DNA of 64,000 bases from Sporosarcina sp. PTS2304 (GTDB taxonomy: Bacteria; Bacillota; Bacilli; Bacillales_A; Planococcaceae): the NCBI RefSeq assembly GCF_003351785.1, contig NZ_CP031230.1, positions 1,488,001 through 1,552,000 on the forward strand, written 5' to 3'. A model generated the notes under the pieces. It was not told the DNA's origin, ran no database searches, and saw only the letters and a program-made list of their open reading frames with translations. The translations under genes were made by a program, and so were the position numbers. How positions within the stretch are numbered: position 1 is the first letter of the stretch; the number at the start of each line of letters is the position of its first letter. Of this stretch, positions 28,026 through 44,342 are shown in pieces.

Positions 28026-29000
28026 TTAATGTACTTTGACTTGCTCTAGTTCTTCAATCAGAATAGGAAGAACATCAAATAAGTCTCCTATTATGCCATA
28101 ATCGGCAACTTTAAAGATATTTGCCTCTGGATCTTTATTGATTGCTACAATAATTTTAGAATTGGACATACCTGCCATATGTTGAATAGCACCAGATATA
28201 CCTACTGCTATATAAAGATCCGGAGTAACAACTTTCCCTGTCTGGCCTATTTGTAATGAGTAGTCACAATAGTCCGCGTCACACGCGCCACGCGACGCCC
28301 CAACCGCACCACCTAAAATATCTGCCAGTTTCTGTAGCATCTCAAAGCCTTCCTCTCCTTTGAGTCCCCGTCCACCAGCTACTACGACTTTTGCTTCTGA
28401 AAGATCGATACCTTTTGTTGATTTTCTTACAACTTCTTTAATAATAGAACGAATATTTTGAATATCTACCAAAATAGAGGATATATCGCCTGATCGACTT
28501 GGGTCACGATCAAGTGGTTTTATGTTATTAGGACGAATAGTAATGAATTGCATATGTTCTTTACTTCTAACTTTTTCAAATGCTTTACCTGAGTAGATGG
28601 GGCGAATGAATAGTAATTCCTCACCTTCTCCTTCAATGGCAGTGACATCGGAGATTAAACCAGTTGACAATTTACTTGCGATTTTCGGTGACAAATCTTT
28701 ACCAAGTGCTGTATGACCAAAAACGATTGCATCAGGCTTTTCTTGTTCATAGACTGCAAGGAATGCTTGCCCATAACCATCTGGCGTATATTGTTTCAAT
28801 TGCGGATGCTCGGAGATAATTACACGGTCAGCACCATAATGATACATTTCTACCGCTATCTCTTTAACAGCATCTCCAAATACGACACCAACTACTTCTG
28901 CATCAGCGAATATCTTCTTTGCTGCCGCAATTGCTTCGAATGATACATTTCGCAAAGTACCTTCTCGTACTTCACCGAGTACTACTATTTTTTTAGACAT
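28026..29000 (-). CDS. etfA: Electron transfer flavoprotein, alpha subunit
   Basis: A 324-residue EtfA. The C-terminal FAD domain has VVVAGGRGLKGEEGFEMLQK, GAVGASRGACDADYCDY and GQTGKVVTPDLYIAVGISG, all standard. With EtfB it accepts electrons from acyl-CoA dehydrogenases and passes them to the quinone pool. Its gene is the last of the operon that begins upstream with the CoA-transferase, just after etfB. Confidence 0.95.
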   Translation of the reverse strand: MSKKIVVLGEVREGTLRNVSFEAIAAAKKIFADAEVVGVVFGDAVKEIAVEMYHYGADRVIISEHPQLKQYTPDGYGQAFLAVYEQEKPDAIVFGHTALGKDLSPKIASKLSTGLISDVTAIEGEGEELLFIRPIYSGKAFEKVRSKEHMQFITIRPNNIKPLDRDPSRSGDISSILVDIQNIRSIIKEVVRKSTKGIDLSEAKVVVAGGRGLKGEEGFEMLQKLADILGGAVGASRGACDADYCDYSLQIGQTGKVVTPDLYIAVGISGAIQHMAGMSNSKIIVAINKDPEANIFKVADYGIIGDLFDVLPILIEELEQVKVH

Positions 29001-29045
29001 CTATGTTCCTCCTACAATTTATAGTTAACGTTCGTATTATTTAAT

Positions 29046-29822
29046 TTATATAATTTTTGCCTCTGTACGCAATAATCCAACTAATTCTTTCACTTGATCG
29101 TTCGTTTCACCATCTAGCACACGCCCCGCTGCTTTTTCGGGTGGTAAAAAAATCTCTACCGTTTCCGTTTTTGGAGCGACATCATCCTCATCTATTTCCA
29201 AGTCGTCCAGCTCTAATTCTTCAAGCGGTTTTTTCTTTGCTTTCATTATGCCTGGAAGAGATGGATAGCGTGGTTCGTTTAGTCCTTGTTGCGCAGTAAT
29301 CAGTAAGGGTAGTGACGTCTCGATCGTTTCTGAGTCACCTTCTACGTCTCTAACTAGTTTTACATCTTTGCCATCTACTTTCAAACTAGTGATTGTCGTG
29401 ACATAATTGATATCAAGTAGTTCTGCGACACGCGGACCCACTTGCCCTGATCCACCATCAATTGCCACATTTCCTGCTAGAATTAAATCCACTTGTTTAT
29501 CTTTTAAATATTCTGCCAATATATTTGCTACTGTAAATTCATCCATTTCATCTAAGTCGTCTTCTGTATTAATTAGTACTGCTTTATCAGCGCCCATTGC
29601 AAGAGCAGTACGGAGCTGTTTCTCAGCTTCTTCATTACCGATTGTTACAACAACAACTTCTCCACCATTCTCATCACGCACTTGGATTGCTTCTTCAATG
29701 GCGTATTCATCGTAAGGGTTAATAATGAACTCTGCTCCGTCTTCCGCAATCTCACTATTTGTAACTGTAATCTTTTCTTCTGTATCAAATGTTCTTTTTA
29801 TAAGCACATAAATATTCATCAA
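29046..29822 (-). CDS. etfB: Electron transfer flavoprotein, beta subunit
   Basis: A 258-residue EtfB with the AMP-binding and dehydrogenase-docking segment typical of the family: NPYDEYAIEEAIQVRDENG near the start, ALAMGADKAVLI and the recognition-loop ending EPRYPSLPGIMKAKKKPLEE. It precedes etfA by about 45 bases and serves the acyl-CoA dehydrogenase encoded two genes upstream. Confidence 0.95.
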   Translation of the reverse strand: MMNIYVLIKRTFDTEEKITVTNSEIAEDGAEFIINPYDEYAIEEAIQVRDENGGEVVVVTIGNEEAEKQLRTALAMGADKAVLINTEDDLDEMDEFTVANILAEYLKDKQVDLILAGNVAIDGGSGQVGPRVAELLDINYVTTITSLKVDGKDVKLVRDVEGDSETIETSLPLLITAQQGLNEPRYPSLPGIMKAKKKPLEELELDDLEIDEDDVAPKTETVEIFLPPEKAAGRVLDGETNDQVKELVGLLRTEAKII

Positions 29823-29843
29823 ATTTCCTCCCTATTTCTTATC

Positions 29844-31031
29844 TCAATGCATATTTTCTACGATAGTTGTAATACCTTGTCCACCGCCGATACAAAGGGT
29901 AACAAGTCCATACTTCACATTTCGTCTTTTCATTTCTGCTAAAAGCTTTGTCATCAAAATAGCTCCTGTCGCACCAATTGGATGTCCTAGCGCAATAGCA
30001 CCTCCGTTGACATTTACAATATCCATATCAATATTCAATTCTTTGATAACCGATAGAGCTTGAGCTGAGAAAGCTTCGTTTAATTCAATAAGACCAATAT
30101 CTTTCATCGTAAGTCCGCATTGCTCTAGCGCTTTCTTTGTAGAAGTGACGGGGCCAATTCCCATAATTTCAGGTGAAACACCACTAACTGCTTGTGAAAG
30201 AATTTTCGCTTCAGCTTTTAACCCATACTCTTTCAATTTCTCTTCAGACATGAGTAAAAGTGCAGAAGCGCCGTCATTCCGACCACTAGCATTGCCCGCG
30301 GTGACTGAACCCCCCTCTTTAAATACAGCTTTTAATTTACTTAACTTTTCAATCGTTGTAGAGCGAGGATGTTCATCTTCTCGAAATATAGTGACTCCTT
30401 TTCTCCCTTTTACTTCAAAAGGAACAATTTCTTCAGAGAAACGCCCTTCTCTAATTGCCCTAGCTGCAAGATTTTGACTTCTAAGTGCAAATTCATCTTG
30501 TTCTTCACGTGAGATATTAAATTGTTCAGCTAGATTTTCTGCTGTATACCCCATCGTTAAATCACCGTATATCTCTACTGGCTGAGAACAAGGTTGACTC
30601 TCCGTATTTGGATCTAGTAACATACCATTTCCTGCACTATAACCAAAGCGAGCATTTCGTAAATAATAAGGTGCAGTACTCATACTTTCTGCTCCACCTG
30701 CAATGATTACATCGGACAGACCTAATCTGATTTGCTGATCAGCATTATTAATTGCTTGTAGACCCGAACCACATTGACGATGAACAGTATATCCAGGAAT
30801 TTCTACGGATAAACCCGCTCGTAGCGTAGCAAGTCTTGCTAGGTTTGACGTATCTGCACTTTGCTTCGCCTGACCAATAATCACTTCATCTACCGATACA
30901 TCCGCATTTGTACGCTTCATCACTTCGCGAATTACCGCTTCTGCTAAGTGGTCAACTGGCACGTCTTGAAGGGCTCCTCCTAATTTTCCAATAGCCGTTC
31001 TAACGGAGTGGACGATGTAAGTATCTCGCAT
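29844..31031 (-). CDS. Acetyl-CoA acyltransferase (thiolase)
   Basis: A 395-residue thiolase. The nucleophilic cysteine is in HRQCGSGLQAI, with NVNGGAIALGHPIGATGA and CIGGGQGI carrying the catalytic His and second Cys. In this operon it would cleave 3-ketoacyl-CoA, or acetoacetyl-CoA formed by the CoA-transferase, to acetyl-CoA. FadA/AtoB-type assignments cannot be separated here. Confidence 0.93.
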   Translation of the reverse strand: MRDTYIVHSVRTAIGKLGGALQDVPVDHLAEAVIREVMKRTNADVSVDEVIIGQAKQSADTSNLARLATLRAGLSVEIPGYTVHRQCGSGLQAINNADQQIRLGLSDVIIAGGAESMSTAPYYLRNARFGYSAGNGMLLDPNTESQPCSQPVEIYGDLTMGYTAENLAEQFNISREEQDEFALRSQNLAARAIREGRFSEEIVPFEVKGRKGVTIFREDEHPRSTTIEKLSKLKAVFKEGGSVTAGNASGRNDGASALLLMSEEKLKEYGLKAEAKILSQAVSGVSPEIMGIGPVTSTKKALEQCGLTMKDIGLIELNEAFSAQALSVIKELNIDMDIVNVNGGAIALGHPIGATGAILMTKLLAEMKRRNVKYGLVTLCIGGGQGITTIVENMH

Positions 31032-31034
31032 TGC

Positions 31035-32192
31035 TTATCTCCCCTTTGCATACTCGCGAATAAGTTCACTAGCTATAATATTACGTTGAATTTCCGATGT
31101 ACCTTCGTAAATTTTTGTAATTCGAGCATCACGGAAGTAACGTTCAATTGGATATTCTGCAACATACCCAACTCCACCATGAATTTGCACTGCTGCATCT
31201 GCAATACGGTTATATACTTCGGAACCAAACAATTTAGCTATTGCCGCCTCACGTACTACACGCATTTTTTGATCTGTCATCCACGCTGCACGATACGTCA
31301 TAGAACGCAATACTTCTATTTGCATACTAATATCAGCAAGCATATGTTGAATCACTTGCACTTCGATGATTGGTTTACCAAATTGTTCACGTTCATGAGT
31401 GTAATCCATACAGTGTTCTAATAGTTTTACACAAGAACCTAAATTACGTGCTGCCAATCCAGCACGGCCATTTGCCAAAATTTTCAACGCATTAATGTAA
31501 CCTTGTCCTTCTTCACCTAATACATTTTCTTCAGGAACTTCCATATTCTCGAAAAATAGTTCTGCAGAATGAGAACCTTTTAGTCCCATCTTCTTTTCAA
31601 TTGATCCTAGTGAAAAACCAGGCATATCTTTTTCTACAATAAACGAAGTAATTCCTTTCGCTCCTTTTGAGCTGTCTGTTACAGCCATGACAGTAAATAC
31701 ATGTGCATCGACAGCATTCGTTATGTAATGCTTAGATCCATTAATGATATATTTATCACCTTTTTTTACAGCTGTCGTTTTCAAGTTAGCCGCATTTGAT
31801 CCTGCACTCGGTTCCGTCAGTGCGAATGCACCAATCCATTCACCTGTCGCCATTTTCGGTAAGTATTTTTTCTTTTGCTGTTCATTACCTAGTTCTACAA
31901 TCCCTACACTTCCGATGCCCGTATGCGCGCCGATTAATGTGGTATAACCATTATGTGTTTTACCTAGTTCCTCGTAAATTGCACATTTGTCTACCATACT
32001 TAATCCTAAGCCGCCGTACTCTTCTGGAATGCTGAGTCCGAAAAGACCCATCTCTTTTGACATTTCTACTATTCTTTCTGGAATATGATCATTTTCTTCA
32101 ATTTCCATTGCTACTGCTTCTACTTCTTCTTTAACAAATTTACGTACTATTTCCTGTAAAAACTGAATATCCTCTGATAAGTTAAAATCCAT
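31035..32192 (-). CDS. Acyl-CoA dehydrogenase
   Basis: A 385-residue flavoprotein of the short/medium-chain acyl-CoA dehydrogenase group. EFALTEPSAGSN-like motif reads GAFALTEPSAGSNAANLKTT, and the catalytic glutamate sits in KIYEGTSEIQRNI at the end. It makes the 2-enoyl-CoA and gives electrons to EtfAB encoded next to it. Chain length or branching preference is not predictable. Confidence 0.93.
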   Translation of the reverse strand: MDFNLSEDIQFLQEIVRKFVKEEVEAVAMEIEENDHIPERIVEMSKEMGLFGLSIPEEYGGLGLSMVDKCAIYEELGKTHNGYTTLIGAHTGIGSVGIVELGNEQQKKKYLPKMATGEWIGAFALTEPSAGSNAANLKTTAVKKGDKYIINGSKHYITNAVDAHVFTVMAVTDSSKGAKGITSFIVEKDMPGFSLGSIEKKMGLKGSHSAELFFENMEVPEENVLGEEGQGYINALKILANGRAGLAARNLGSCVKLLEHCMDYTHEREQFGKPIIEVQVIQHMLADISMQIEVLRSMTYRAAWMTDQKMRVVREAAIAKLFGSEVYNRIADAAVQIHGGVGYVAEYPIERYFRDARITKIYEGTSEIQRNIIASELIREYAKGR

Positions 32193-32221
32193 TATTATTA
32201 TCCCCTTTTGATTTCAAATTT

Positions 32222-33073
32222 TCATTTAGTTTCATAGTCATAAAATCCTTTGCCACTCTTCTTTCCTAATCTCCCGGCCTTTACATACTTCGTCAATAAT
32301 GGACAAGGACGGTATTTTTCTCCTAAAGTCGCATATAAGTACTCCATATTGCGTAAACGTGTATCTAAACCTACTAAATCTGCTAATTCTAATGGTCCCA
32401 TTGGATGATTTAGCCCTAGCTTCATTGCTTGATCAATATCTTTCGCTGTTGCAACGCCTTCCATTAACATATTCATTGCTTCATTTCCGATTAAACAATT
32501 CATGCGGGAAGTAACAAAACCGGGGAATTCATTAACTTCCACAGCTGTTTTCCCTAATGATTCTGTGTATTCTTTAATTAAATTAACTGTATCATCGGAA
32601 GTTTCCAAACCACGGATCACTTCTACTAACTTCATTTTGTGAACCGGATTAAAGAAATGCATAGCAACTACTTTATGTGAACGACTTGTTTGTGCACCAA
32701 TTTCAGTTGGACTCATTGTCGATGTATTCGTAGCTAATATCGCTTCTGGTTTACAAATCTCATCAAGCTGTTTAAAAATCTTGATTTTCAGATCCATTCT
32801 TTCTAAAACTGCTTCAATCACTAGATCTGATTCCTTTGCAGCTGTTGACAAATCTGATTCAAAATAGAGATTCCTTTCAGCCGCTTTGCATTGTTGTTCT
32901 TCTAGAAAGCCTCTTTTCACACTATTGTTAAGTAGCGCGTGGATTTCTTTTTTAGCCTTTCCAAGCACTTCTTCGTTTAAATCATTTAAATACACACGAT
33001 ATCCTGCCGTTGCAAATGCGTAAGCAATCCCTTTTCCCATGACACCCGCGCCTACTACTGTGACTTGTTTCAC
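32222..33073 (-). CDS. 3-hydroxyacyl-CoA dehydrogenase
   Basis: A 283-residue NAD-dependent dehydrogenase (Hbd/PaaH type): GAGVMGKGIAYAFATAG Rossmann loop, ATNTSTMSPTEIG, catalytic HFFNPVHKMKLVEV and the C-terminal LNHPMGPLELADLVGLD. It would oxidise 3-hydroxyacyl-CoA to 3-ketoacyl-CoA, the step before the thiolase. Only 29-30 bases separate it from genes on both sides. Confidence 0.93.
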   Translation of the reverse strand: MKQVTVVGAGVMGKGIAYAFATAGYRVYLNDLNEEVLGKAKKEIHALLNNSVKRGFLEEQQCKAAERNLYFESDLSTAAKESDLVIEAVLERMDLKIKIFKQLDEICKPEAILATNTSTMSPTEIGAQTSRSHKVVAMHFFNPVHKMKLVEVIRGLETSDDTVNLIKEYTESLGKTAVEVNEFPGFVTSRMNCLIGNEAMNMLMEGVATAKDIDQAMKLGLNHPMGPLELADLVGLDTRLRNMEYLYATLGEKYRPCPLLTKYVKAGRLGKKSGKGFYDYETK

Positions 33074-33098
33074 AATTTAACCACCTTTTTCTAATATT

Positions 33099-33752
33099 TC
33101 AATTTACTACTGGTGCAGTAACAACTTCAAATTCAGCAGCTGTAATTTCTTTTAATTTATCAACTGTTATATCTGATAAAATTTCTACTAATTTCATCTG
33201 TCCTTGAGTAAATGTAAATACCGCATGCTCAGTTACAACCATGTCTACTGTACGGCTACCACTAGAAGGATATGTTAACTCTTTGACTAATTTAGGACTT
33301 CCATCTTTAGCAGTATGTAGCGTTGCAACAATAATCTTTTTAGCGCCAGATACTAAATCCATCGCTCCTCCAACACCTAGAATTGTTTCTCCAGGCACTG
33401 CCCAATTAGCAATTTCTCCATTTTGATCGACTTGCAATGCACCGAGGACTGCTATATCAATATGACCGCCACGAATCATAGCAAATGAGTCGGAACTATC
33501 AAACAAAGACGCTCCAAGGTCTGCCGTGATAGGTTTTTTGCTAGCACTTATCAGATCCATATCAATTTCAGTATCAGCAGGTGTAGGACCCATCCCTAGC
33601 AATCCATTTTCCGACTGTAAATAAAGTTTTTTATCTCCTAAATAATCCGGAATTAATGTCGGTATTCCTACTCCTAAATTAACGGCCTGTCCTTCCTTCA
33701 GCTCTTTCACAATCCGTTTAGCAATCGTTATACGCTCTGCTTGACTCGACAT
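33099..33752 (-). CDS. 3-oxoacid CoA-transferase, subunit B
   Basis: A 217-residue beta subunit of a SCOT/Ato-type transferase. The catalytic glutamate is in QSENGLLGMG, and LGVGIPTLIPDYL and GGAMDLVSGAKKIIV are typical. Together with subunit A it moves CoA from succinyl-CoA or acetyl-CoA to a 3-oxo acid such as acetoacetate or 3-oxoadipate. Substrate is not settled; BKACE in the same cluster argues for acetoacetate. The gene overlaps subunit A by 35 bases. Confidence 0.92.
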   Translation of the reverse strand: MSSQAERITIAKRIVKELKEGQAVNLGVGIPTLIPDYLGDKKLYLQSENGLLGMGPTPADTEIDMDLISASKKPITADLGASLFDSSDSFAMIRGGHIDIAVLGALQVDQNGEIANWAVPGETILGVGGAMDLVSGAKKIIVATLHTAKDGSPKLVKELTYPSSGSRTVDMVVTEHAVFTFTQGQMKLVEILSDITVDKLKEITAAEFEVVTAPVVN

Positions 33753-34422
33753 ATCTTCCCTCCTTCTTCACATACTTACTCAGTACAATATAATCGACGT
33801 ATACATGCGGAGTAACGATATCGCCTGGTGAGAGATCACCTACTTCAACAATTTCATCTACTTCGGCGATAACAATGCTACTCGCCGTTGCCATCACAGC
33901 ATTAAAATTACGACTAGTCGCTTCATATACTAAATTTCCTAATTGATCTGCTTTTTTTGCTTTAATAAGTGATACATCGCCTTTAATCGCTTTCTCCAAA
34001 ATATATACTTCACCATCAATTTCTTTTTCTTCTTTTCCTTCAGATAACTTCGTGCCTACAGCCGTCTTCGTATAAAAACCACCGATACCCGCCCCACCGC
34101 AACGGATTGCTTCAGCCAACGTCCCTTGAGGAACAAGTTCAATTTCTAGAAGACCCGCTGACCAATCTCTCACTGCATCCCGGTTAGTTGTAAAATAAGA
34201 ACCGACAGCTTTTTTTAATTGGCGCTTAAACAATAACTTACCAAGGCCTTTTCCTTCTTCACCTAAATTATTACTAACAACAGTCAAGTCTTTTAACGGG
34301 GAATCTGCAATTGCATCTAATAAACTCAAAGGCGTTCCGGAAAGACCAAAACCGCCAACAAGCAATGTATCACCGTTTTTAATATAATTTATAGCATCTG
34401 TATGGGAAATAATCTTTACCAC
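33718..34422 (-). CDS. 3-oxoacid CoA-transferase, subunit A
   Basis: A 234-residue alpha subunit: GDTLLVGGFGLSGTPLSLLDA is the CoA-binding start, and EIELVPQGTLAEAIRCGGAGIGGFYT is characteristic. It forms the enzyme with the overlapping subunit B. It is the first enzyme gene after the PAS regulator. Confidence 0.93.
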   Translation of the reverse strand: MVKIISHTDAINYIKNGDTLLVGGFGLSGTPLSLLDAIADSPLKDLTVVSNNLGEEGKGLGKLLFKRQLKKAVGSYFTTNRDAVRDWSAGLLEIELVPQGTLAEAIRCGGAGIGGFYTKTAVGTKLSEGKEEKEIDGEVYILEKAIKGDVSLIKAKKADQLGNLVYEATSRNFNAVMATASSIVIAEVDEIVEVGDLSPGDIVTPHVYVDYIVLSKYVKKEGRYVESSRAYNDC

Positions 34423-34458
34423 TAAAGCTTGTCCCCTTTCTTTTGAATAACAAATATA

Positions 34459-36198
34459 TTATTCCAGTTCTAGTTTTTTTATCTTTCTGAAAACTGTAGA
34501 TGGATTTACTTGTAAAACATTAGCGATTTCTTTGGAAGTTTTGAATTTTGTACTTGCTAGCTGTATTAATTCCTTCTCTAATTCTTCTACCGCTTCACGT
34601 AACGGCATGATTTTATTGATATAAACTGGTTTCTCATCTCCAAGTAAAGCGGCAACTGCTTCTACATGTATTTTTCTTGAAGTAGAAATAAACAAATGTT
34701 CTAGCACATGAAATAATTCTCGTTCATTTCCCGGCCAATGATATGTAACAAGGCGGGATAATGCTTCTTTTTCAATCAACAAATCCTTATTATATCTTTT
34801 CGTGAGTTCTGCCCATTTTTGTTGTAGTAGCTCAGATAAATCTTCCTTACGTTCCCTAAGGGGGGGCATAGTAAATGTTACGATATGTAGCATGTAGTAT
34901 AAATCCTCATTAAATTTTCCTTGTGCTACATATTTTTTTAAATCCTTATGAGTAGAAACAATTAGTCGCACATCGACAATTTTTCTCTCTAAAGTATTTT
35001 CCATTTCAACTGATTGACTTTTCAGAAGTCGAAGCAATTTAACTTGAACGAACATGGGCATTTGATCAATATTACGTAAAAAAATAGTACCCCCATCTGC
35101 CTGTTCGAAGCATCCAACTACATTTTGTCGTTCATTTGCCCTCTCATAATATCCGAATAATTCTTGGTCTAATTCTTTTTCAGAAAGTATTGAGCAATCT
35201 ATAGTAAGGTACGGAGCATTTTTTCTATCACCCATTTCAATAATGGTAGAAGCTATTTTCTCTTGTTCTGTACCTTGTTCTCCTTGTATTAAGATTGTCA
35301 CTTCTGTCTGAGAGGCTTGGTGCATTTGCGAATGTAAAATTTTCATTGAATCGGAATATAAAATGAGTGGATCTCGTTGTTCTTTATCTGCTAAACGTCT
35401 TTGCATCGTTACTAGCTTTGACTTTAACTCATCAACTGACGAAATTTCTTCGACAAACAAAACCACTCTTTCTACCACGCCTTTTTCATTTAAAATCGGA
35501 TAACCTGACAACGTATATTTCTTTTTTGATTCTGGATGTTTTTGAGTGATTTTGTATTCTTGTTTCGAGCATATAATGTCATAAACAATTTTACGGAATT
35601 CTGATTGCTTCCGATTAAAACCAGTTGTAAAATATATTCGATCAAATTCTAAATTTTTACGAATAATCATACCAGCTGAGTCTACAATGCATATTCCAGA
35701 TTGAGAATGATTCATAATCGTTTCAATTTCATCGACCAATTGCCTCACAGTCGACAATTCATTCGATATCATTTCCACTTCCGCGATTTCCTGGAAAACC
35801 CCAACTGCACCCACTAATTTTTTCCCTTCAAATATTGGCGATCGATGTGCTAGATATTTACGATTACCCACTGTATACTTTTCAGAATGTCGTTCACCAG
35901 TTCGGATGACATTTAAAAGACCTGATGGAGCAACAACCTCATTCAGAAACTTTCCAATGGCTTCGTCTTTTTTAGTTTTTGCCATTCTTTCAGCAGCAGG
36001 ATTCATCGCAGTTATTTTACCTTCTACATCGATAGAAAGAATTCCATTGTGCACAGAATTAAATATGGCGTCTAAATTCATATAATTTTGTTTATGATCT
36101 GTTTCCTCATTCTGACGACGTTCGACACTTTCAGCGATATTTTGATTACTTACGACAGTCACCCCCTTCAGATGCACGTTTCTATTGCACAAATGCAA
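34459..36198 (-). CDS. PAS-PAS regulator with degenerate sigma54-activator ATPase domain
   Basis: 579 residues from the longest start: two PAS domains (about 40-140 and 155-255), an AAA+ domain of the sigma54-activator type (about 275-510) and a Fis/TyrR-like helix-turn-helix at the end (KTSKEIANVLQVNPSTVFRK). Key ATPase motifs are ruined: Walker A reads GEQGTEQEK where GESGTGKE is usual, the GAFTGA loop is missing, and Walker B reads GGTIFLRNID where GGTLFLDEIG is usual. It therefore cannot be expected to drive sigma54 and probably acts as a repressor or activator on ordinary promoters, like TyrR. The start is uncertain: GAAGGGGGTG near 36163 has no standard start at ideal spacing. Confidence 0.8.
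   Translation of the reverse strand: MHLCNRNVHLKGVTVVSNQNIAESVERRQNEETDHKQNYMNLDAIFNSVHNGILSIDVEGKITAMNPAAERMAKTKKDEAIGKFLNEVVAPSGLLNVIRTGERHSEKYTVGNRKYLAHRSPIFEGKKLVGAVGVFQEIAEVEMISNELSTVRQLVDEIETIMNHSQSGICIVDSAGMIIRKNLEFDRIYFTTGFNRKQSEFRKIVYDIICSKQEYKITQKHPESKKKYTLSGYPILNEKGVVERVVLFVEEISSVDELKSKLVTMQRRLADKEQRDPLILYSDSMKILHSQMHQASQTEVTILIQGEQGTEQEKIASTIIEMGDRKNAPYLTIDCSILSEKELDQELFGYYERANERQNVVGCFEQADGGTIFLRNIDQMPMFVQVKLLRLLKSQSVEMENTLERKIVDVRLIVSTHKDLKKYVAQGKFNEDLYYMLHIVTFTMPPLRERKEDLSELLQQKWAELTKRYNKDLLIEKEALSRLVTYHWPGNERELFHVLEHLFISTSRKIHVEAVAALLGDEKPVYINKIMPLREAVEELEKELIQLASTKFKTSKEIANVLQVNPSTVFRKIKKLELE
36185..36198. promoter_or_regulatory. Candidate operator 1: TTGCA-N4-TGCAA
   Basis: A perfect inverted repeat, TTGCACAAATGCAA, extended by one A/T pair on each side, overlaps the longest start of the PAS regulator gene. 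A second, nearly identical site lies 71 bases away. Confidence 0.5.
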
Positions 36199-36255
36199 TG
36201 ATTACACTGTTTTTTTTGATTTTCTAAAAGGATTTTCATGGTCGAAATATTTTTA

Positions 36256-36269
36256 TCGCATAATTGCAA
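36256..36269. promoter_or_regulatory. Candidate operator 2: TCGCA-N4-TGCAA
   Basis: TCGCATAATTGCAA matches operator 1 except for one base, in the gap between the aldehyde dehydrogenase stop and the regulator gene. Centre-to-centre distance is 71 bases, near seven helical turns. Confidence 0.45.
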
Positions 36270-36302
36270 CAGTTAAAGCAAAAAAAATTCTTTTGAAATG
36301 AA

Positions 36303-37739
36303 TTATTCATACCACCAAGCAGATTTTTCTGTTGAATGATTGCTGAAAAGTACCTTCCTGCGGACAAATCGTTTAATAGATGATATGCCTATTCTTGAAC
36401 CACCTAATCCAGAAGATTTAAACGATGTCTTTTCCATATCTAACTCATCACCGATAAAGAATGGTGAAAGTCCAGTGTCATTAATACTAATACCACCAAC
36501 ATCTACTTTTTGTGCAATTTGCTCGCCCTCTTCAATAGTTCCTGCAAACACAGCACCGCTTAAACCATATTTCGAGTCATTCGCAAGTTCAATAGCTTCT
36601 TCAATTGTTTGAAATGTAATAACAGGCATAATTGGTCCAAATGTTTCTTCTTGTATTAGCTTCATATTAGAAGTTACATTCGTTACAACTGTTGGTCTGC
36701 ACCAAAGTCCTCCATCTATAATTTGGATTTCACCACCACAATGTATTACTGCTCCTTTTTCCACAGCATCATCTAAATGAGCTTTAATAATTTCCGCTTG
36801 AGGTGCAAATATGATGGGACCAATTTCACCACTTTCTGGAGTTGGATAAGCAAGCTTCAATTTATTGGCTTTCTCCGTCAACTTTTCGACAAATTCTGTT
36901 TCAATAGATTCTGCTACATAAATTCTTTCTAGGGAATAACATTGATGTCCTACTCCAAGTACAGATCCTACAAGAATTGCCGATGTAGCTCGATCAATAT
37001 CCGCTGTCTCCGTTACAATAACTGGGTCTTTTCCACCTAATTCTAAAAATGCTGGAATAAAACGCTCTGCAGCTCTAACCGCTACTTTACGACCTGTTGA
37101 GACACTTCCCGTAAAGCATATCATGTCAATATGTTCAATTAGCTCGGCACCCGTTTCACCTGCACCTGTAACATATTGCATTACTTTTGCTAACTCTGGA
37201 ACACGCTCGATCGATTCCATCATTGGTTTAATAAAACGCGGTGTGATTTCACTAGGTTTTATCACAACAGCACAGCCAGATAATAATGCGGGTATAGCAT
37301 CCATGAGTGAAAGTGATAGCGGAAAATTCCAAGGACTAATTACACCAACTAATTGATAAGCAGAATAATCACTTGTCGCTTTCACAGTAGATATAGAAGT
37401 ATCCTGTGTTGATGTTTTAAATTGTTCAATTGCAATTTTGCTCCATCGATCCACCCATTTAGATATATTATCTACTTCACGAAGACTTTCCCTTATTCTT
37501 CCTGTATCTGCTACATTGGCAGATAATAAGTCTTCTCTTGAAAGTTGCAAGGAATCTTTCCATTGTTTTAGTACTTCTACTCTACCGCTGACACCCATTG
37601 CCTCCCAAGCGAACTGATTTGTCCGTAGATTTTCACAAAGCTCTTGTAGTTCTTCTTTAGAAGGTATAGCTATTTGATAATCACTTTGACCTGTTCGCGG
37701 ATTACGTACCTCTATAAATTCACTACCGTTCCCCGACAT
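36303..37739 (-). CDS. Aldehyde dehydrogenase family protein
   Basis: A 478-residue NAD(P)-dependent dehydrogenase. ISPWNFPLSLSLMDAIPALL, the cofactor loop FTGSVSTGRKVA, the catalytic glutamate in FLELGGKDPVIV and cysteine in GVGHQCYSLERIYV are present. It would oxidise an aldehyde, perhaps the cleavage product of the oxygenase, to the acid that is then activated by CoA. It follows tctA by 30 bases. Confidence 0.9.
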   Translation of the reverse strand: MSGNGSEFIEVRNPRTGQSDYQIAIPSKEELQELCENLRTNQFAWEAMGVSGRVEVLKQWKDSLQLSREDLLSANVADTGRIRESLREVDNISKWVDRWSKIAIEQFKTSTQDTSISTVKATSDYSAYQLVGVISPWNFPLSLSLMDAIPALLSGCAVVIKPSEITPRFIKPMMESIERVPELAKVMQYVTGAGETGAELIEHIDMICFTGSVSTGRKVAVRAAERFIPAFLELGGKDPVIVTETADIDRATSAILVGSVLGVGHQCYSLERIYVAESIETEFVEKLTEKANKLKLAYPTPESGEIGPIIFAPQAEIIKAHLDDAVEKGAVIHCGGEIQIIDGGLWCRPTVVTNVTSNMKLIQEETFGPIMPVITFQTIEEAIELANDSKYGLSGAVFAGTIEEGEQIAQKVDVGGISINDTGLSPFFIGDELDMEKTSFKSSGLGGSRIGISSIKRFVRRKVLFSNHSTEKSAWWYE

Positions 37740-37769
37740 ATTTCCATCTCCTTTACAATCTTTATTTAG

Positions 37770-39263
37770 TCAAATATTTAATGAAGTTTTTTTCTTATTA
37801 CGGTACTTGTTAATATTTGGGACAATAATGATCAGTGCAATTAATACAAGCAGTATGATGGAGTAAATTCTCGTATAAAAAATTGAAAAATCACCATTAG
37901 AAATAATTAATGCACGTCTAAAACTTTCCTCTATAATAGGAGCTAAAACAAATGCAATGATTAGTGTTGGCATTGAAAACTTTGCTTCTATTAGGAGATA
38001 ACATATAACACCGATGAGCAAAGCTACCCATAAGTCGAAAAACAATCCATTTGCAGCAAATACACCAATAATCGTGATCAAGTAAATAAACGGTACTAAG
38101 ATAGGATTTGGCAAAATTAGCGCTCTAGCAAATAATGATGTTACATAACGTCCCATTACATACATTGCGACCGTAGATAACAATATACCAAATAGAATGC
38201 CGTATACTAAATCTGAGTTGTTTTGGAAAATACGAGGTCCAGGCTGAACACCATGAATGATAAACGCCCCCATAATAATTGCCGGCGCAACAGATCCTGG
38301 AATTCCTAGTGCTAACAAAGGAATCATTGAAGATGCAACAGTCGCATTATTAGCTGATTCTGGCGCTGCAATTCCTTCTGGATGTCCTGTTCCAAACTTC
38401 TCGGGTGTTTTTGATGTTTTCTGAGCAACTACATAAGAAAACCAAGATGCAGATACAGCACCAAGACCAGGTAAAATCCCTAGAACAACACCTAATATCG
38501 ATCCAATAATTGTGGATTGGGAGACGTCTCGTAATTCTCGGAGTGTAATTTTTGTGTTTAAATTTTGTTTTCCAACATCATGAACTTTACGTAGCTCTAA
38601 ATTGATAAGTTTAAATATTTCTGGAAAAGCAAAAACTCCTACTAGAATAGGTAAAATACCTACTCCTTCTAATAACTCTGCTTGTCCCATTGTAAAACGC
38701 TGTTCACCTGTAAACATATCCATACCTATTGTGCCGATCATCAATCCAAGCATCATAGAGATAAGTCCCTTAATTGCATTCTTAGAACTAATCATAGATA
38801 CGGCAATCAAACCTAAAATTCCAATTAAGAAGTATTCAGGTTCAGATAATTTTAAAGCAAATTTCGCAAAAGGTTGTGCTAAAAATATCAATGCAAGACC
38901 ACCTGCGAATGCACCTATTGTAGATGCTGTTAAAGAATAGCCAAGAGCCTTACCAGGATATCCCTTTTTAGCCATTGCACTACCATCCAATATTGTAGCT
39001 GCAGCTGCCGGAGTACCTGGAATACCTAGTGCAATGGAAGAAATAGAACCGCCATACTCAGCAGCTTGAAATGCGGAAAGTAATAATAACACTGCGGCTA
39101 CAGGCTCCATACTGTATGTTAAAGGAAGCAAAACAATCATCGCCATAATGGCACCTAGTCCTGGAAGTGCACCGAAAATGAGGCCGACAGTTGTCCCTAA
39201 TAAAATGGCAAGTAAATTGCCAATAGAAAATAAAGTTAAAATATCAAATCCAAAAATGGTCAT
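37770..39263 (-). CDS. Tripartite tricarboxylate transporter, large permease (TctA)
   Basis: A 497-residue membrane protein with about 12 segments. GALPGLGAIMAMIVLLPLTY, GIPGTPAAAATILDG and a second half-repeat GILPGLGAVSASWFSYVVAQ with GHPEGIAAPESANNA are signatures of TctA. The system imports carboxylates with a periplasmic-type binding lipoprotein. The substrate in this cluster is unknown. Confidence 0.92.
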   Translation of the reverse strand: MTIFGFDILTLFSIGNLLAILLGTTVGLIFGALPGLGAIMAMIVLLPLTYSMEPVAAVLLLLSAFQAAEYGGSISSIALGIPGTPAAAATILDGSAMAKKGYPGKALGYSLTASTIGAFAGGLALIFLAQPFAKFALKLSEPEYFLIGILGLIAVSMISSKNAIKGLISMMLGLMIGTIGMDMFTGEQRFTMGQAELLEGVGILPILVGVFAFPEIFKLINLELRKVHDVGKQNLNTKITLRELRDVSQSTIIGSILGVVLGILPGLGAVSASWFSYVVAQKTSKTPEKFGTGHPEGIAAPESANNATVASSMIPLLALGIPGSVAPAIIMGAFIIHGVQPGPRIFQNNSDLVYGILFGILLSTVAMYVMGRYVTSLFARALILPNPILVPFIYLITIIGVFAANGLFFDLWVALLIGVICYLLIEAKFSMPTLIIAFVLAPIIEESFRRALIISNGDFSIFYTRIYSIILLVLIALIIIVPNINKYRNKKKTSLNI

Positions 39264-39281
39264 AGCATGCGCCTCTCTTCT

Positions 39282-39728
39282 CTAAAACTGAACGCTCATT
39301 ACTTTTTCGAAAACAAAGTAAATAAAAATTGTCATCGACAATGACAATATACTTAATGTGAAAATACCTTTACTAAAAATAGGACGTGGCTTAAATAGCA
39401 TAAACAGACTCAACATGAAAACAAATGTTAGTGGATAGAAAAATCCAAAGTTACTCCAAAGCAAGAAGTAGACAACGGTTAATCCGATAGAAATAAGCAC
39501 TAAATGAATATTTCCTAAATCTACTTTATAATCTTTTGCTTTAATCGTTTGAAAGAGACTAATGATACAAAGGATAATAAAGGTTACTGAAATAATTCTC
39601 GGAAAATAGCCCGCATCTATACTTCCTTCTCCGTTAAGTTTCAAAAAAGAATTACTTAGTTTGAAATAGTAGCTAGCAATTGCAATAAAAACTACTAATA
39701 TAACCATAGTTAATTTCTTACCGCTCAT
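39282..39728 (-). CDS. Tripartite tricarboxylate transporter, small permease (TctB)
   Basis: A 148-residue protein with four hydrophobic segments, as in TctB; LNGEGSIDAGYFPRIISV is the usual loop after the first segment. The ATG at 39726-39728 follows AAGGAGG by six bases. Genes run TctC, TctB, TctA in the direction of transcription. Confidence 0.85.
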   Translation of the reverse strand: MSGKKLTMVILVVFIAIASYYFKLSNSFLKLNGEGSIDAGYFPRIISVTFIILCIISLFQTIKAKDYKVDLGNIHLVLISIGLTVVYFLLWSNFGFFYPLTFVFMLSLFMLFKPRPIFSKGIFTLSILSLSMTIFIYFVFEKVMSVQF

Positions 39729-39866
39729 ATATACCCTCCTTAACAATAGCTAATATTACTAAAAGACAAAAGGCACGAGAGTGAGATTTAAGAAATTTTT
39801 CCAATTTCCCACGCACATGCCAATTTAAAATTTATCTTAGTTTTATCAAATCTACTTTACTTACAA

Positions 39867-40880
39867 TCATTTCGCGCCTAAGTTATTCGTTTCGATAACT
39901 TTTTTAGCAATCTCATAGTTATTTTGAATTAATGATTCAAAATCTTTCAATCCGGTACCTTCTGGCTCTAATTTTAGTCCTTCATAGAATTCAACGACTT
40001 TTGGATCTTTGAATGCTTCAGTAAAAGCTTCATATAAGATCTTTGCAACGTCTTCATCCATACCTTTTGGTCCAAAAACACCCGAAGATGGATCGGAAAA
40101 TACTTCATCATAACCAAAGTCTGTTAAGAGAGGTACGTCCGGAAATGCTGAATATCTTGTATCACCTAGAAAAACAATAGGCTTTAGATCACCATTTTCT
40201 ACATATTCCTGTACTTCATGTGCTTGAATAACTATTCCATCTATATGTCCACCTAGCAATGAAGTTAATGCTGAAGATGTTCCATCAAATGGAACCATTT
40301 TCGTATCGATATTCGCATTAATATTTAATGCTTCCATTGTTAAATGCTGTGAACTTCCATTTCCAGGTGTTCCATAGGTAAACTTCCCTGGATTTTTTTG
40401 AACATATTCTAACCATTGCTCAAATGTATCCCATTCAGCATCTTCACTTACCATCAGCATTGATTGACTAGCTTGTACATTAACAATCGGTGTAAAATCT
40501 TCATGGGTATAAGATGCTGTTCCAAATAGATTTTGGTAAGCAATTGTTGGCACTGTTGAATAAAGAATTTGGTAACCATCTGGTTTTGCGTTTGATACTG
40601 TAGTTGATCCAACTACACCAGTACCACCAGGTTTATTGACGACAACTACATTCACTTTATTTGGCAAATACTTCGGTAAGACACTTGCGATAATACGCAT
40701 TGACGTGTCTGTAGTACCGCCTGGAGGAAATGGAACGACAATTTCAATATCTTTTTCAGGATAAGTTGATTTCCCATCTGATGGAGTTTTACCATCATCT
40801 CCAGCATTTTCTTTGTTCGTTCCACAAGCAGCTAACAAGACCATTAAAGCTGTTAGCATAAGTATAAATAGTTTTTTCAT
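39867..40880 (-). CDS. Tripartite tricarboxylate transporter, binding lipoprotein (TctC)
   Basis: A 337-residue lipoprotein (lipobox LLAAC) of the Bug/TctC type: DIEIVVPFPPGGTTDTSMRI, VVNKPGGTGVVG, SSQHLTMEALN and the typical end PEVVEFY-like region (DPKVVEFYEGLKLEPEGTGL). It binds the carboxylate outside the membrane and hands it to TctAB. The gap of 138 bases to tctB has no strong terminator. Confidence 0.92.
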   Translation of the reverse strand: MKKLFILMLTALMVLLAACGTNKENAGDDGKTPSDGKSTYPEKDIEIVVPFPPGGTTDTSMRIIASVLPKYLPNKVNVVVVNKPGGTGVVGSTTVSNAKPDGYQILYSTVPTIAYQNLFGTASYTHEDFTPIVNVQASQSMLMVSEDAEWDTFEQWLEYVQKNPGKFTYGTPGNGSSQHLTMEALNINANIDTKMVPFDGTSSALTSLLGGHIDGIVIQAHEVQEYVENGDLKPIVFLGDTRYSAFPDVPLLTDFGYDEVFSDPSSGVFGPKGMDEDVAKILYEAFTEAFKDPKVVEFYEGLKLEPEGTGLKDFESLIQNNYEIAKKVIETNNLGAK

Positions 40881-40910
40881 AGTTTCTCTCCTTTTTATGT
40901 TTCATTATTT

Positions 40911-41678
40911 TTAAGAAATTCTGCGCCCACCACTTACTTCAATAGTTTCTCCAACTACATAACTTGAATAAGGAGAAGCTAAGTATAAAACAGCTCCCGC
41001 AATTTCATCAGCTGTTCCTGAACGCTTTAATGGAATGTTACTGAAAATATGTTCATAAGAATCTAATGGTGCAGAACTGTTATGGAATGGTGTATCAATC
41101 AATCCTGGCGAAACAGCATTTACTAAAATATTATGAGCAACCATTTGTTTTGCGAGCGAGCGAGTAAGAGAAGATACACCACCTTTTGCAGCTGCGTACG
41201 CTGCCCCTTCCGGCGTGCCTCCTGTCCTTTCAACATTTGAAGTAATATTGATAATTCTACCTTCTCCTTGTTTTTTAATCAGAGGAAGCGCCGCTTGGGT
41301 GACTAGAAACACAGACTTCAGATTGACCGCAATAATACGCTCCCAGTCGTCCTCTTCAATGTCCTCGAATTTTGCTTTTTTCACAAAAGCGCCTACATTG
41401 TTAACCAAAATATCGATATGGCCAAAATGTTCTTCAATTTTTCCCATCATTTTTTCTACGTCTTTTTTTATTGTGACATCGCCATCTACCAGCAATACGT
41501 CATGACCCTCTTCGAGTAAATCTGTAATCATTGCTTCATCCTCAACTGTCTTTTTGTAGCCATGAATTACTACTTTTCCACCATGTGATAAAAACTGACG
41601 TGCAATCGCATTTCCAATTCCTGTTGTACTTCCTGTAATCATTGCTACTTTACCATCAAATGAAAACATTTTATCCAC
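40911..41678 (-). CDS. Short-chain dehydrogenase/reductase
   Basis: A 255-residue classical SDR: TGSTTGIGNAIA cofactor loop, NNVGAF, catalytic Ser in NITSN, YAAAK catalytic Tyr-Lys, SPGLIDTP and the C-terminal GETIEVSGGRRIS. It may oxidise a hydroxyl to a keto group, for instance to make the 3-keto acid substrate of BKACE; direction and substrate are not visible. Confidence 0.9.
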   Translation of the reverse strand: MDKMFSFDGKVAMITGSTTGIGNAIARQFLSHGGKVVIHGYKKTVEDEAMITDLLEEGHDVLLVDGDVTIKKDVEKMMGKIEEHFGHIDILVNNVGAFVKKAKFEDIEEDDWERIIAVNLKSVFLVTQAALPLIKKQGEGRIINITSNVERTGGTPEGAAYAAAKGGVSSLTRSLAKQMVAHNILVNAVSPGLIDTPFHNSSAPLDSYEHIFSNIPLKRSGTADEIAGAVLYLASPYSSYVVGETIEVSGGRRIS

Positions 41679-41681
41679 TCC

Positions 41682-42593
41682 TTATAAATTATCCGAAAAC
41701 CACTCTATAGCTGGTTGTACAGCTTTCTCGAACTCTTTTGTATATACATCAAAATGTCCGCCATCCAATAGTATAAGTTTTTTTGGTTCAAGAATTTTTT
41801 CAAACGCTTTTAATGTGATATCTGTTGGAGTAATAAAATCTTCTTTTGCAACTAGCAACAATACAGGTGTTGGACTTATTAACTCTAAATAGCTGGATAT
41901 CTCATAACCGCGTACATTTTCAAGCGATCGTAGCGTAACTGCATTGACAAAATCAGGCGCTATATCAAAAGCTTCAGAATACCACTCAATTGCGTCTTGT
42001 GAAGGAAATACAGCACTCTCTCCTTCTTTCGTAGGAATAATCTGTAAAGTGACAGGTTCCTCACCTAACAATCGATTTTTTCTATCATCAGCAAACTGTT
42101 TAAAAAGTTTCTTTTGCTTTTCTCCATTACTTCTTCTAATTGCATTTTCAAATCCGCTAATAGTCGGAACTTGTGACACGACACATTTTACACGGTGATC
42201 GATTGCCCCGAGCACTAGACTATGCCCTCCACTAAAACTTGTTCCCCATACTCCAATTCGATCTGCGTCTACTTCTTTTAATGTGGAAACAAAAGTTATA
42301 GCATGACGATAATCTTCAATTTGTTGCCAAGGATTAATTTCTTGGCGTGGGGTTCCTTCGCTTTCACCAAAGCTTCGATTATCAAATAGTAAAACAGCAA
42401 AACCGTTCTGGGAGAATGCTTTGGCGAAGCGGTCAATATGCATTTCTTTTACTGCACCGAAACCATGGCTCATCACAATTGTGGGATATTTCTGCAGTTC
42501 ATGTTCAGGTGTATAAAAATTTCCTTTAATCGATACACGATCGATTTCAAACTCCACTTTTCTTACATTTGATTTTTTGTGACACACGAACAT
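41682..42593 (-). CDS. Alpha/beta hydrolase, dienelactone-hydrolase/esterase-like
   Basis: A 303-residue alpha/beta hydrolase. VMSHGFGAVKEMHIDRFAKA holds the oxyanion region, GTSFSGGHSL the nucleophilic serine, LLLVAKEDFITP the acidic residue and DGGHFDVY the histidine, so the triad is complete. It abuts the upstream hydrolase gene (TGAATG). It could open a lactone or ester in the pathway. Confidence 0.85.
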   Translation of the reverse strand: MFVCHKKSNVRKVEFEIDRVSIKGNFYTPEHELQKYPTIVMSHGFGAVKEMHIDRFAKAFSQNGFAVLLFDNRSFGESEGTPRQEINPWQQIEDYRHAITFVSTLKEVDADRIGVWGTSFSGGHSLVLGAIDHRVKCVVSQVPTISGFENAIRRSNGEKQKKLFKQFADDRKNRLLGEEPVTLQIIPTKEGESAVFPSQDAIEWYSEAFDIAPDFVNAVTLRSLENVRGYEISSYLELISPTPVLLLVAKEDFITPTDITLKAFEKILEPKKLILLDGGHFDVYTKEFEKAVQPAIEWFSDNL

Positions 42594-43313
42594 TCACCCC
42601 TTCTTTATGATCATGTCGAATATCCAATTACGTAATTCATTTGCTATCTCTTCAGGCTGTTCCATAGGTAACATATGACCGCTTTTTGGTATTTCTATAA
42701 AATAAGAATGCTTTATTTCGCTAGATAATTCCTGCATTTTATCCGACGGAAATACTTGATCATCGCTACCTGCCATAATGAGTATCGGACCCTTATACTG
42801 TCGAAGAGCATACATACGATCTGGTCTTTCTATACTCGCTTGCTGATGCGCAATAAAATGATGTGCTCCGTAATCTTCTTGCATCTTCTTTCGTAAAGCT
42901 ATAAATTCAGGTTTCTCACCATTGTCCTTATAAAAGAGCTTGCCTTTCTGACTGCTAATCATCTTTTCATACTCTCCCGCTTTTGCACGCTCAACAGCTT
43001 GAACTCTTGCTTTTTTTCTAGTCGTAGTATCCGACGAAGGAGAAGTTGCCATTAATATAAAACCTTCAATTCTTTCAGGCTCTTGGAGAAGCATGGATAG
43101 CGCTACAAATCCTCCAAAAGAAAAACCACAAAGGTAAAATGACTCTGGTAGTTCATTCAGCAATTCTTTACCGAGCTTATCAATGTTATTGATAGGTGGG
43201 CAGGTAATAGGATAACAATTAAATTCATCATCCAATTTCTTTACAACGCCATCCCATATGGCTGCTGTATTATTAAGGCCGGGAAGCAGAACAAGATTTT
43301 TTTTACATTCCAT
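42594..43313 (-). CDS. Alpha/beta hydrolase, MhpC/BioH-like
   Basis: A 239-residue hydrolase with nucleophile GFSFGGFVAL, acid in IMAGSDDQVFP and histidine in KSGHMLPMEQPEEIA. The family covers C-C hydrolases and thioesterases. The ATG at 43311-43313 follows AGGTG by nine bases, whereas a GTG four codons earlier has no site. It is second in the operon after BKACE. Confidence 0.85.
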   Translation of the reverse strand: MECKKNLVLLPGLNNTAAIWDGVVKKLDDEFNCYPITCPPINNIDKLGKELLNELPESFYLCGFSFGGFVALSMLLQEPERIEGFILMATSPSSDTTTRKKARVQAVERAKAGEYEKMISSQKGKLFYKDNGEKPEFIALRKKMQEDYGAHHFIAHQQASIERPDRMYALRQYKGPILIMAGSDDQVFPSDKMQELSSEIKHSYFIEIPKSGHMLPMEQPEEIANELRNWIFDMIIKKG

Positions 43314-43373
43314 TTTATAAATCACCTGAAATTCTTATTTCATTATATTTATTTGTAAGCGCATTCAATTTTT

Positions 43374-44225
43374 TCACAATTTCATAGCTGATGCTGGTTT
43401 TAATTTCAAAATTTTTCTTGCATCTGCGGGTGTTGCTACTTCTCTACCGAACTCGTAAGATAAATTTCGCATTCTTTCAACAAATTCCGCATTAGATTTT
43501 GCCAAAACCCCAGGACGGATGTAAATATGGTCTTCCATACCAACACGAACATCGCCACCTAAGCCAATAGTCATCGAATTTAGTGTCATTTGATTTTGGA
43601 AAGCCACACATCCCCAGCTAGACCCTTCGGGAATAGTTTCTAATAAGTGAAGAAGATTTTTAGGTGTCGCCTGCATTCCACCATCAGATCCTAAGACAAG
43701 TTGAAAATGATAGGGTTTATCAATCAATCCTTCATCTGCAAGCTTTAATGCGTTATGAATCATCCCAGTATGAAAAACTTCAATTTCGGGACGGATATGA
43801 TGTTTTTGCATACTACCAGCTAATTTCCGTAAAGTTTGGGGGCTATTCATAAAAACTATTTCCCCTAAATTTAACGAACCGGTATCCAAAGAAGCAAAAT
43901 CCGGCTCTAATTCACAAAAAGCCATTCTTTCTTCATCCGTAATACCATGTTTACCTGAAGAGGTTAGGCTAATAATGATGTCATCACATTTTTCTTTAAC
44001 GCGTTCCACGGTTTCACGATATAAATTGACATCCATTGAAGGTGATCCATCCGCTTCTCTCACATGTATATGAGCGATTGCCGCTCCTTCCTGATACGAG
44101 CGATATACTTCTTCTGCGATTTCTTTAGGAGTGATTGGCACGTAAGGAGTTTTTTGCCTTGTTGTGCTAATTCCAGTTGGAGCAACTGTGATGATTAGTT
44201 TCTCCATACTTTCGATAATATTCAT
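43374..44225 (-). CDS. Beta-keto acid cleavage enzyme (BKACE, DUF849)
   Basis: A 283-residue zinc TIM barrel of the 3-keto-5-aminohexanoate-cleavage-enzyme family. IAHIHVREADG supplies two zinc histidines, SLTSSGKHG and GGDVRVGMEDHIY further active-site residues. BKACEs take a beta-keto acid plus acetyl-CoA to acetoacetate plus a new acyl-CoA. This fits with the CoA-transferase and thiolase of the island, which would convert acetoacetate to acetyl-CoA. The start has AAGGAGG eight bases upstream; this is the first gene of the leftward operon. Confidence 0.9.
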   Translation of the reverse strand: MNIIESMEKLIITVAPTGISTTRQKTPYVPITPKEIAEEVYRSYQEGAAIAHIHVREADGSPSMDVNLYRETVERVKEKCDDIIISLTSSGKHGITDEERMAFCELEPDFASLDTGSLNLGEIVFMNSPQTLRKLAGSMQKHHIRPEIEVFHTGMIHNALKLADEGLIDKPYHFQLVLGSDGGMQATPKNLLHLLETIPEGSSWGCVAFQNQMTLNSMTIGLGGDVRVGMEDHIYIRPGVLAKSNAEFVERMRNLSYEFGREVATPADARKILKLKPASAMKL

Positions 44226-44313: not shown

Positions 44314-44342
44314 AATATACCGGTGCTAAGTAAGAATGTCAA
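44314..44342 (-). promoter_or_regulatory. Promoter of the BKACE operon
   Basis: TTGACA (44337-44342) and TATATT (44314-44319) on the minus strand with exactly 17 bases between: a strong sigmaA promoter. The leader to the BKACE start is about 80 bases. Confidence 0.8.

Follow-up and report, generated by a model that had tools for sequence, protein, structure and literature searches.

The window, a 64,000-nucleotide stretch of the Sporosarcina sp. PTS2304 genome, carries on its minus strand a long collinear catabolic cluster (28026-44225) that runs from uptake (Tct) and hydrolase genes through a regulator gene to CoA transferase, beta-oxidation and Etf genes (Table 1). The regulator is bEBP-like and is encoded by a single frame that stays open throughout its 579 codons. 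The presumed TTG start codon falls within an operator-like palindrome, and the Shine-Dalgarno-like sequence shares bases with a GTG in the same frame at 36162.

Table 1. Features of the regulator gene and the surrounding catabolic cluster in the window.
Feature	Position	Strand	Basis or remark
Sigma A-like promoter TTGACA-17-TATATT	44314-44342	-	11/12; upstream of whole collinear cluster
DUF849/BKACE-like protein, two alpha/beta hydrolases, SDR, TctC/B/A, aldehyde dehydrogenase (upstream, collinear)	36303-44225	-	Named from sequence
Second operator-like palindrome GTTGCAATTATGCGAT (as read on minus strand)	36255-36270		8/10; 71 bp upstream of first
First operator-like palindrome ATTGCATTTGTGCAAT (as read on minus strand)	36184-36199		8/10; just upstream of Shine-Dalgarno-like sequence
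bEBP-like regulator ORF, PAS - PAS-like - AAA+ - HTH	34459-36198	-	579 codons from TTG; real start somewhere from 36198 to 36081
PAS1, CitA/DcuS-like, residues 40-140	35779-36081	-	Pfam; 74% identical to canonical Cytobacillus orthologue
Second PAS-like domain, about residues 160-250	35449-35721	-	Predicted structure only, no Pfam call
Degenerate Walker A, GEQGTEQE (GK to EQ)	35260-35283	-	Alignment
L1 segment YYERANERQNVV at GAFTGA position	35116-35151	-	Alignment; pLDDT dip in model
Degenerate Walker B, GGTIFLRNI region (DE to RN; LRNI instead of LDEI)	35068-35091	-	Alignment
Arginine-finger region FNEDLYYML (vs FREDLYYRL)	34888-34914	-	Alignment; both putative Arg gone
Sensor II region GNEREL	34714-34731	-	Alignment; Arg kept
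C-terminal HTH (HTH_50)	34468-34608	-	23.3 bits, below 27-bit cut-off
CoA transferase subunit A	33718-34422	-	Orthologous operon
CoA transferase subunit B	33099-33752	-	Orthologous operon
3-Hydroxyacyl-CoA dehydrogenase	32222-33073	-	62-79% identical in orthologous operons
Acyl-CoA dehydrogenase	31035-32192	-	72-88% identical in orthologous operons
Thiolase	29844-31031	-	Orthologous operon
Electron-transfer flavoprotein subunits, end of collinear cluster	28026-29822	-	Named from sequence

Pfam searches identified one PAS domain, the sigma54 activator core shared with sigma54-dependent bEBPs (PF00158, E = 6e-39), an AAA lid and a sub-threshold HTH_50 match in the regulator. The original prediction had two PAS domains and the HTH retained; one PAS domain is confirmed by Pfam, while the second appears in the predicted structure only and the HTH stays below threshold. 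The AlphaFold model (mean pLDDT 83.5; AAA core mostly about 90-96) retains the AAA+ fold, the check that had been proposed for the core, and shows two PAS-like domains linked via long helices, plus the HTH. The modelled core superposes on those of NtrC1, FleQ and ZraR, with target TM values of 0.84-0.90 for the NtrC1 and FleQ cores. Since the motif residues described below are gone and the model is still AAA+, the predicted structure indicates that the regulator retains the fold but not the active site.

Walker A positions 311-312 are G-K in at least 90% of 33 aligned sequences, and the regulator replaces the nearly invariant G311 and K312 with E and Q. The Walker B Asp-Glu pair is likewise absent. 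Between LFG and GxFE, YYERANERQNVV is found in the regulator versus YEGGAFTGALKKGKA, which amounts to a net loss of 3 residues along with replacement, so the GAFTGA loop is indeed missing, as predicted, but not by clean deletion. The sensor I Asn is replaced by His; this change and the arginine-finger losses were not named in the earlier prediction. The prediction that all ATPase hallmarks are lost holds for both Walker motifs, the arginine fingers and the sensor I Asn; it is slightly too strong, because sensor II Arg493 and P-loop glycines 306 and 309 are still present. The earlier readings of Walker A (GEQGTEQEK) and Walker B (FLRNID) were both correct, and the Walker A coordinates (near 35261-35287) were off by about 4 bases. 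Of the 155 full-core bEBP-like proteins sampled in Sporosarcina, none but the regulator lacks the Walker A Lys, which suggests that its state is more than chance.

Orthologues were recognised by their neighbours, a regulator gene followed by those for CoA transferase A and B, 3-hydroxyacyl-CoA dehydrogenase and acyl-CoA dehydrogenase, in Cytobacillus, Rossellomorea, Calidifontibacillus and others. The operon enzymes are mostly 70-88% identical to those of the window (range 62-88%), but the regulators are only 38-42% identical, and no orthologue in the genomes searched exceeds 44% identity to the regulator. The Bacillaceae orthologues have the canonical CBS-PAS-PAS-AAA+-HTH architecture with Walker A, GAFTGA and Walker B intact. 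GAFTGA is absent from all seven Planococcaceae orthologues, which come from a Sporosarcina MAG, Psychrobacillus lasiicapitis, P. soli, Lysinibacillus yapensis, Kurthia, the genome of L117 and the window (proteins of the first five: L128, L143, L151, L157 and L186). Their ATPase residues differ: the Sporosarcina MAG protein retains both Walker motifs, that of P. lasiicapitis retains Walker A and has LDGI at Walker B, those of P. soli, L. yapensis and L117 have GTGRS and KN, and the window protein has EQ and RN. In a midpoint-rooted tree the seven group as a single clade (99/99 support); its long branches (window, Kurthia) call for caution, and the Walker residues may have gone in one event or in two. 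RpoN is encoded in the five other Planococcaceae orthologue genomes tested, so RpoN loss was not the cause of loop loss there. Most simply, the sequences suggest a single loss of the loop, in ancestors that still had RpoN. In distant relatives of the same CBS-PAS-AAA+ family (L147, L150, L154, L155, L158, L160-L163, L165, L166 and, from Desulfosporosinus, L183), GAFTGA is lost, Walker A is kept and Walker B reads YLEDI or similar, and this loss is apparently independent.

Between the canonical Cytobacillus and Calidifontibacillus regulators, the AAA core is the best-conserved part (82% identity, vs 73% for PAS1). The order is reversed between the window and Cytobacillus, with PAS1 at 74%, the HTH at 55%, AAA at 37% and the lid at 31%, which indicates that it was chiefly the motor that was released from constraint. 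PAS1 is 67-74% identical to that of the Cytobacillus, Rossellomorea and Geobacillus orthologues. A sequencing error or frameshift was rejected, as there is one open frame, PAS1 is conserved and relatives share much of the state. Orthologues with restored motifs would, by the earlier criterion, have pointed to error or recent decay; the Bacillaceae proteins are intact, but the seven Planococcaceae genes have lost the loop together with the -24/-12 promoter as a clade, which points to an evolved state.

All 19 Bacillaceae-type orthologues carry that promoter, in near-perfect form, next to the regulator gene (mostly TGGCACACTTCTTGCA, 10-11 of 11 matches); none of the seven Planococcaceae orthologues has one in the same stretch. 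A scan of the window's flanking gap bears out the prediction that no -24/-12 promoter is present there. In the alignment of the region upstream of the Sporosarcina MAG gene, a palindrome, a TTGCAA-N17-TAT element and GAGTGTATCAC persist and the -24 GG and -12 element are destroyed; judged by this alignment, the region looks like a fossil sigma54 promoter. The P. lasiicapitis upstream region is also alignable, with the palindrome kept and the same two elements destroyed.

Upstream of the 19 canonical genes there are 55 matches to the palindrome, GTTGC-N6-GCAAC scored at 8 or more of 10 positions (shuffle mean 1.75), and the regions preceding the seven Planococcaceae genes contain 15 (shuffle mean 0.45). 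Distant clostridial relatives gave 11 matches vs 4.2 when shuffled, all scattered 8/10 or 9/10 matches. Both palindromes in the window are imperfect, at a score (8/10) that is reached 16 times in 64 kb, and in ATTGCATTTGTGCAAT matched changes in both arms (ATTGC...GCAAT) keep the symmetry. The RTTGC-N6-GCAAY form has only 10 sites in the whole genome, making chance occurrence in this gap unlikely; as a control pattern has 7, we do not claim a large palindrome regulon. For the window, Kurthia, P. soli, L. yapensis and L117 genes, an operator is close to the Shine-Dalgarno sequence, near the position of -24/-12 in the canonical genes. Five canonical genes, like those of P. lasiicapitis and the Sporosarcina MAG, have a TATAGT/TATAAT-like box 17 bp from TTGCAA, a possible -35 that the proximal palindrome overlaps. 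If the ancestor had a tandem sigmaA promoter that was already under operator control, this would explain how the switch could be survived. The window's 400-bp gap region gave no consensus sigmaA promoter, and a terminator scan of the gap was also blank. A 15-kb promoter and terminator scan was at chance level overall, despite the match at 44342-44314. Genes collinear up to 44225 and this promoter-like match make read-through possible.

The host genome is complete (3.5 Mb, single contig) and has no match to the RpoN domains PF04963 or PF04552, with controls performing as expected. A missed RpoN was rejected on these grounds, as were weak PF04963 matches elsewhere (proteins of about 205 aa, E above 1e-5). 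The predicted independence of the regulator from sigma54 is thus strongly supported at the genome level. Across 68 Sporosarcina genomes, 43 have RpoN and 25 do not; a literature search of incomplete coverage found no earlier description of RpoN loss in this genus. bEBP-like ORFs were taken from the 25 RpoN-minus and 14 RpoN-plus genomes, and full-core proteins (70 and 85, respectively) were counted. A GAFTGA-type loop (GAF/GSF/GTF[TS]GA) is kept in 0/70 vs 53/85, and by a strict count (GA/GE-F-T/S-GA) in 0/70 vs 40/85 (Fisher p 1.6e-13, a guide only because the species are related). Some proteins of RpoN-plus genomes also lack the loop, suggesting that some conversions predate RpoN loss. The host genome encodes three bEBP-like paralogues, all without GAFTGA and all with the Walker A Lys. 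A hidden GAFTGA bEBP in this genome was rejected: the sole DNA match to the loop pattern (3301875-3301891 of the contig; L126, 702-1100) lies in a GerQ-like spore-coat protein (TPQGAFTGATPTT), a chance occurrence and a trap for motif-only searches.

Several other bEBP-like proteins of the genus were recorded. The loops nearest to GAFTGA in RpoN-minus Sporosarcina are GAFPGA (two proteins) and GAFHGA (one); T/S to P is a preferred change among deviating loops (PMC3162934). A second subfamily of about 450-490 aa, with five members noted in RpoN-minus and seven in RpoN-plus genomes, has an intact Walker A and K-x-[IV]-D at Walker B, and, as read from these motifs, it seems to have lost hydrolysis in parallel while still binding ATP. 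A further type of about 440-510 aa, present in the host genome at 1679066 and with orthologues such as L093-L115 and L268-L271, has no L1 loop and FCERI at Walker B, and is widespread in RpoN-plus and RpoN-minus species alike. Two RpoN-plus Sporosarcina genomes (G018 and G019) have no DNA match to the GAFTGA/GAFSGA pattern; these may use GSFTGA variants or be en route to RpoN loss.

We conclude that the regulator is probably an ATPase-dead, PAS-sensing, sigma54-independent autoregulator of the catabolic operon, descended from a sigma54 activator. The ancestor would have been a CBS-PAS-PAS-AAA+-HTH sigma54 activator heading an operon for acyl-CoA (short-chain acid) degradation, and a -24/-12 promoter would have lain next to its gene. 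The Planococcaceae lineage would then have lost the sigma54-contacting loop and the operon's -24/-12 promoter while RpoN was still present, and the lineage of this Sporosarcina would have gone on to lose the ATP-binding and hydrolysis residues, the CBS domains and rpoN. What remains would be an ATPase-dead AAA+ scaffold joining PAS sensors and HTH. Most likely, the regulator's binding sites are the two GTTGC-N6-GCAAC-type palindromes that precede its own gene at a spacing of 71 bp, and signal binding by PAS would control sigmaA transcription of the operon, either at a promoter within the gap or close by, or by read-through from the upstream Tct and aldehyde dehydrogenase genes. Of the two modes, repression that a substrate-derived signal lifts is somewhat favoured over activation, given that one operator is next to the Shine-Dalgarno-like sequence.

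The opposite mode, in which the regulator activates sigmaA RNA polymerase by direct contact from the upstream palindrome, as do TyrR or R. capsulatus NtrC, is possible but doubtful. The right half of the proximal palindrome, TTGCAA, stands 17 bp from TATAGT, TATACT or TATAAT in the seven relatives with this arrangement, which would suit contact at -35, and activators are among the known sigma70-type bEBPs (PMC10274813). However, the -10 box is absent in the window, the position of the downstream operator suits repression better, and binding over -35 could also repress.

That the gene is a decaying pseudogene, functionless and drifting since rpoN loss, with the operon constitutive by read-through, is improbable. 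Such decay would fit the low AAA and lid identities, a long terminal branch (1.3 changes per site), the missing CBS domains, the ambiguous start codon and the blank promoter scan of the gap. It fits poorly with an intact frame, a PAS1 domain as conserved as between canonical species, the HTH identity and the matched arm changes of the palindrome, and comparably degenerate forms persist in other genera, while structure prediction folds the protein with confidence. Most likely, this is not a dying gene. It is very unlikely that the regulator is a regulatory subunit relying on the ATPase of the three paralogues, since, although these have an intact Walker A and AAA+ proteins can form mixed rings, they lack GAFTGA, have HTH_8-type HTHs and are encoded elsewhere in the genome, sigma54 is absent and so cannot be remodelled, and the regulator lacks arginine fingers and both Walker sites.

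At the level of the genus, rpoN-less Sporosarcina may well have kept 1-7 activators per genome rebuilt as sigmaA regulators, with AAA+ as a scaffold without sigma54-remodelling activity and -24/-12 dismantled beside unchanged enhancer palindromes; the window gene would be the end point, nucleotide-independent as well, with intermediates in living relatives. Sigma54 and its activators have been reported to co-occur near-perfectly, with few exceptions (PMC3162934). In contrast, 25 of 68 Sporosarcina species genomes encode activator-like proteins but no sigma54, and none of those proteins has the contacting loop. The annotation "sigma54-interacting regulator" is misleading for such genes. The series from intact proteins, through loop loss with ATPase residues kept and then ATPase residue loss, to absence of RpoN, together with -24/-12 decay beside preserved enhancer sites, makes the rewiring of an ATP- and enhancer-dependent regulon to the housekeeping sigma factor testable stepwise.

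The canonical activators of Cytobacillus, Rossellomorea, Geobacillus and Brevibacillus share mostly the same operon, the HTH and the palindrome type, but keep CBS, Walker A/B, GAFTGA and -24/-12. VpsR of Vibrio cholerae is of the response-regulator type and binds c-di-GMP, and its host has RpoN; the regulator differs in having PAS sensors. The VpsR entry PDB 7v2b matches the regulator with an E value of 7e-39. VpsR lacks GAFTGA, acts at sigma70 promoters and does not require ATP (PMC10274813). NtrC of Caulobacter and Rhodobacter capsulatus carries an L1/GAFTGA deletion and acts at sigma70 promoters, but still needs ATP binding, or binding and hydrolysis (PMC10274813), for which the residues are gone in the regulator. 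TyrR and DhaR of E. coli and HupR of R. capsulatus are bEBP paralogues that no longer contact sigma54 and rely on sigma70 (PMC3162934); the regulator resembles them in its HTH_50-like C-terminus, but its genome lacks RpoN altogether. With no Pfam match to the ACT domain of the TyrR N-terminus and 158 of 576 bits against the TyrR model, the regulator is not a member of TyrR, and its DhaR family score is also far below cut-off. The best curated match, PrdR (NCBIfam NF041552), gave 261 bits over residues 155-575 against a cut-off of 795 bits; no proline reductase genes were seen nearby, and PrdR identity was rejected. The regulator does have an AAA+ core without GAFTGA together with a DNA-binding domain, as in the sigma54-independent class of TyrR, DhaR, HupR and VpsR. 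By analogy, the best reading is that it would work like these proteins and sigma70-type NtrC but is more degenerate; what is new is that nucleotide-binding residues are lost and that the genus is often without rpoN yet retains activator-like proteins.
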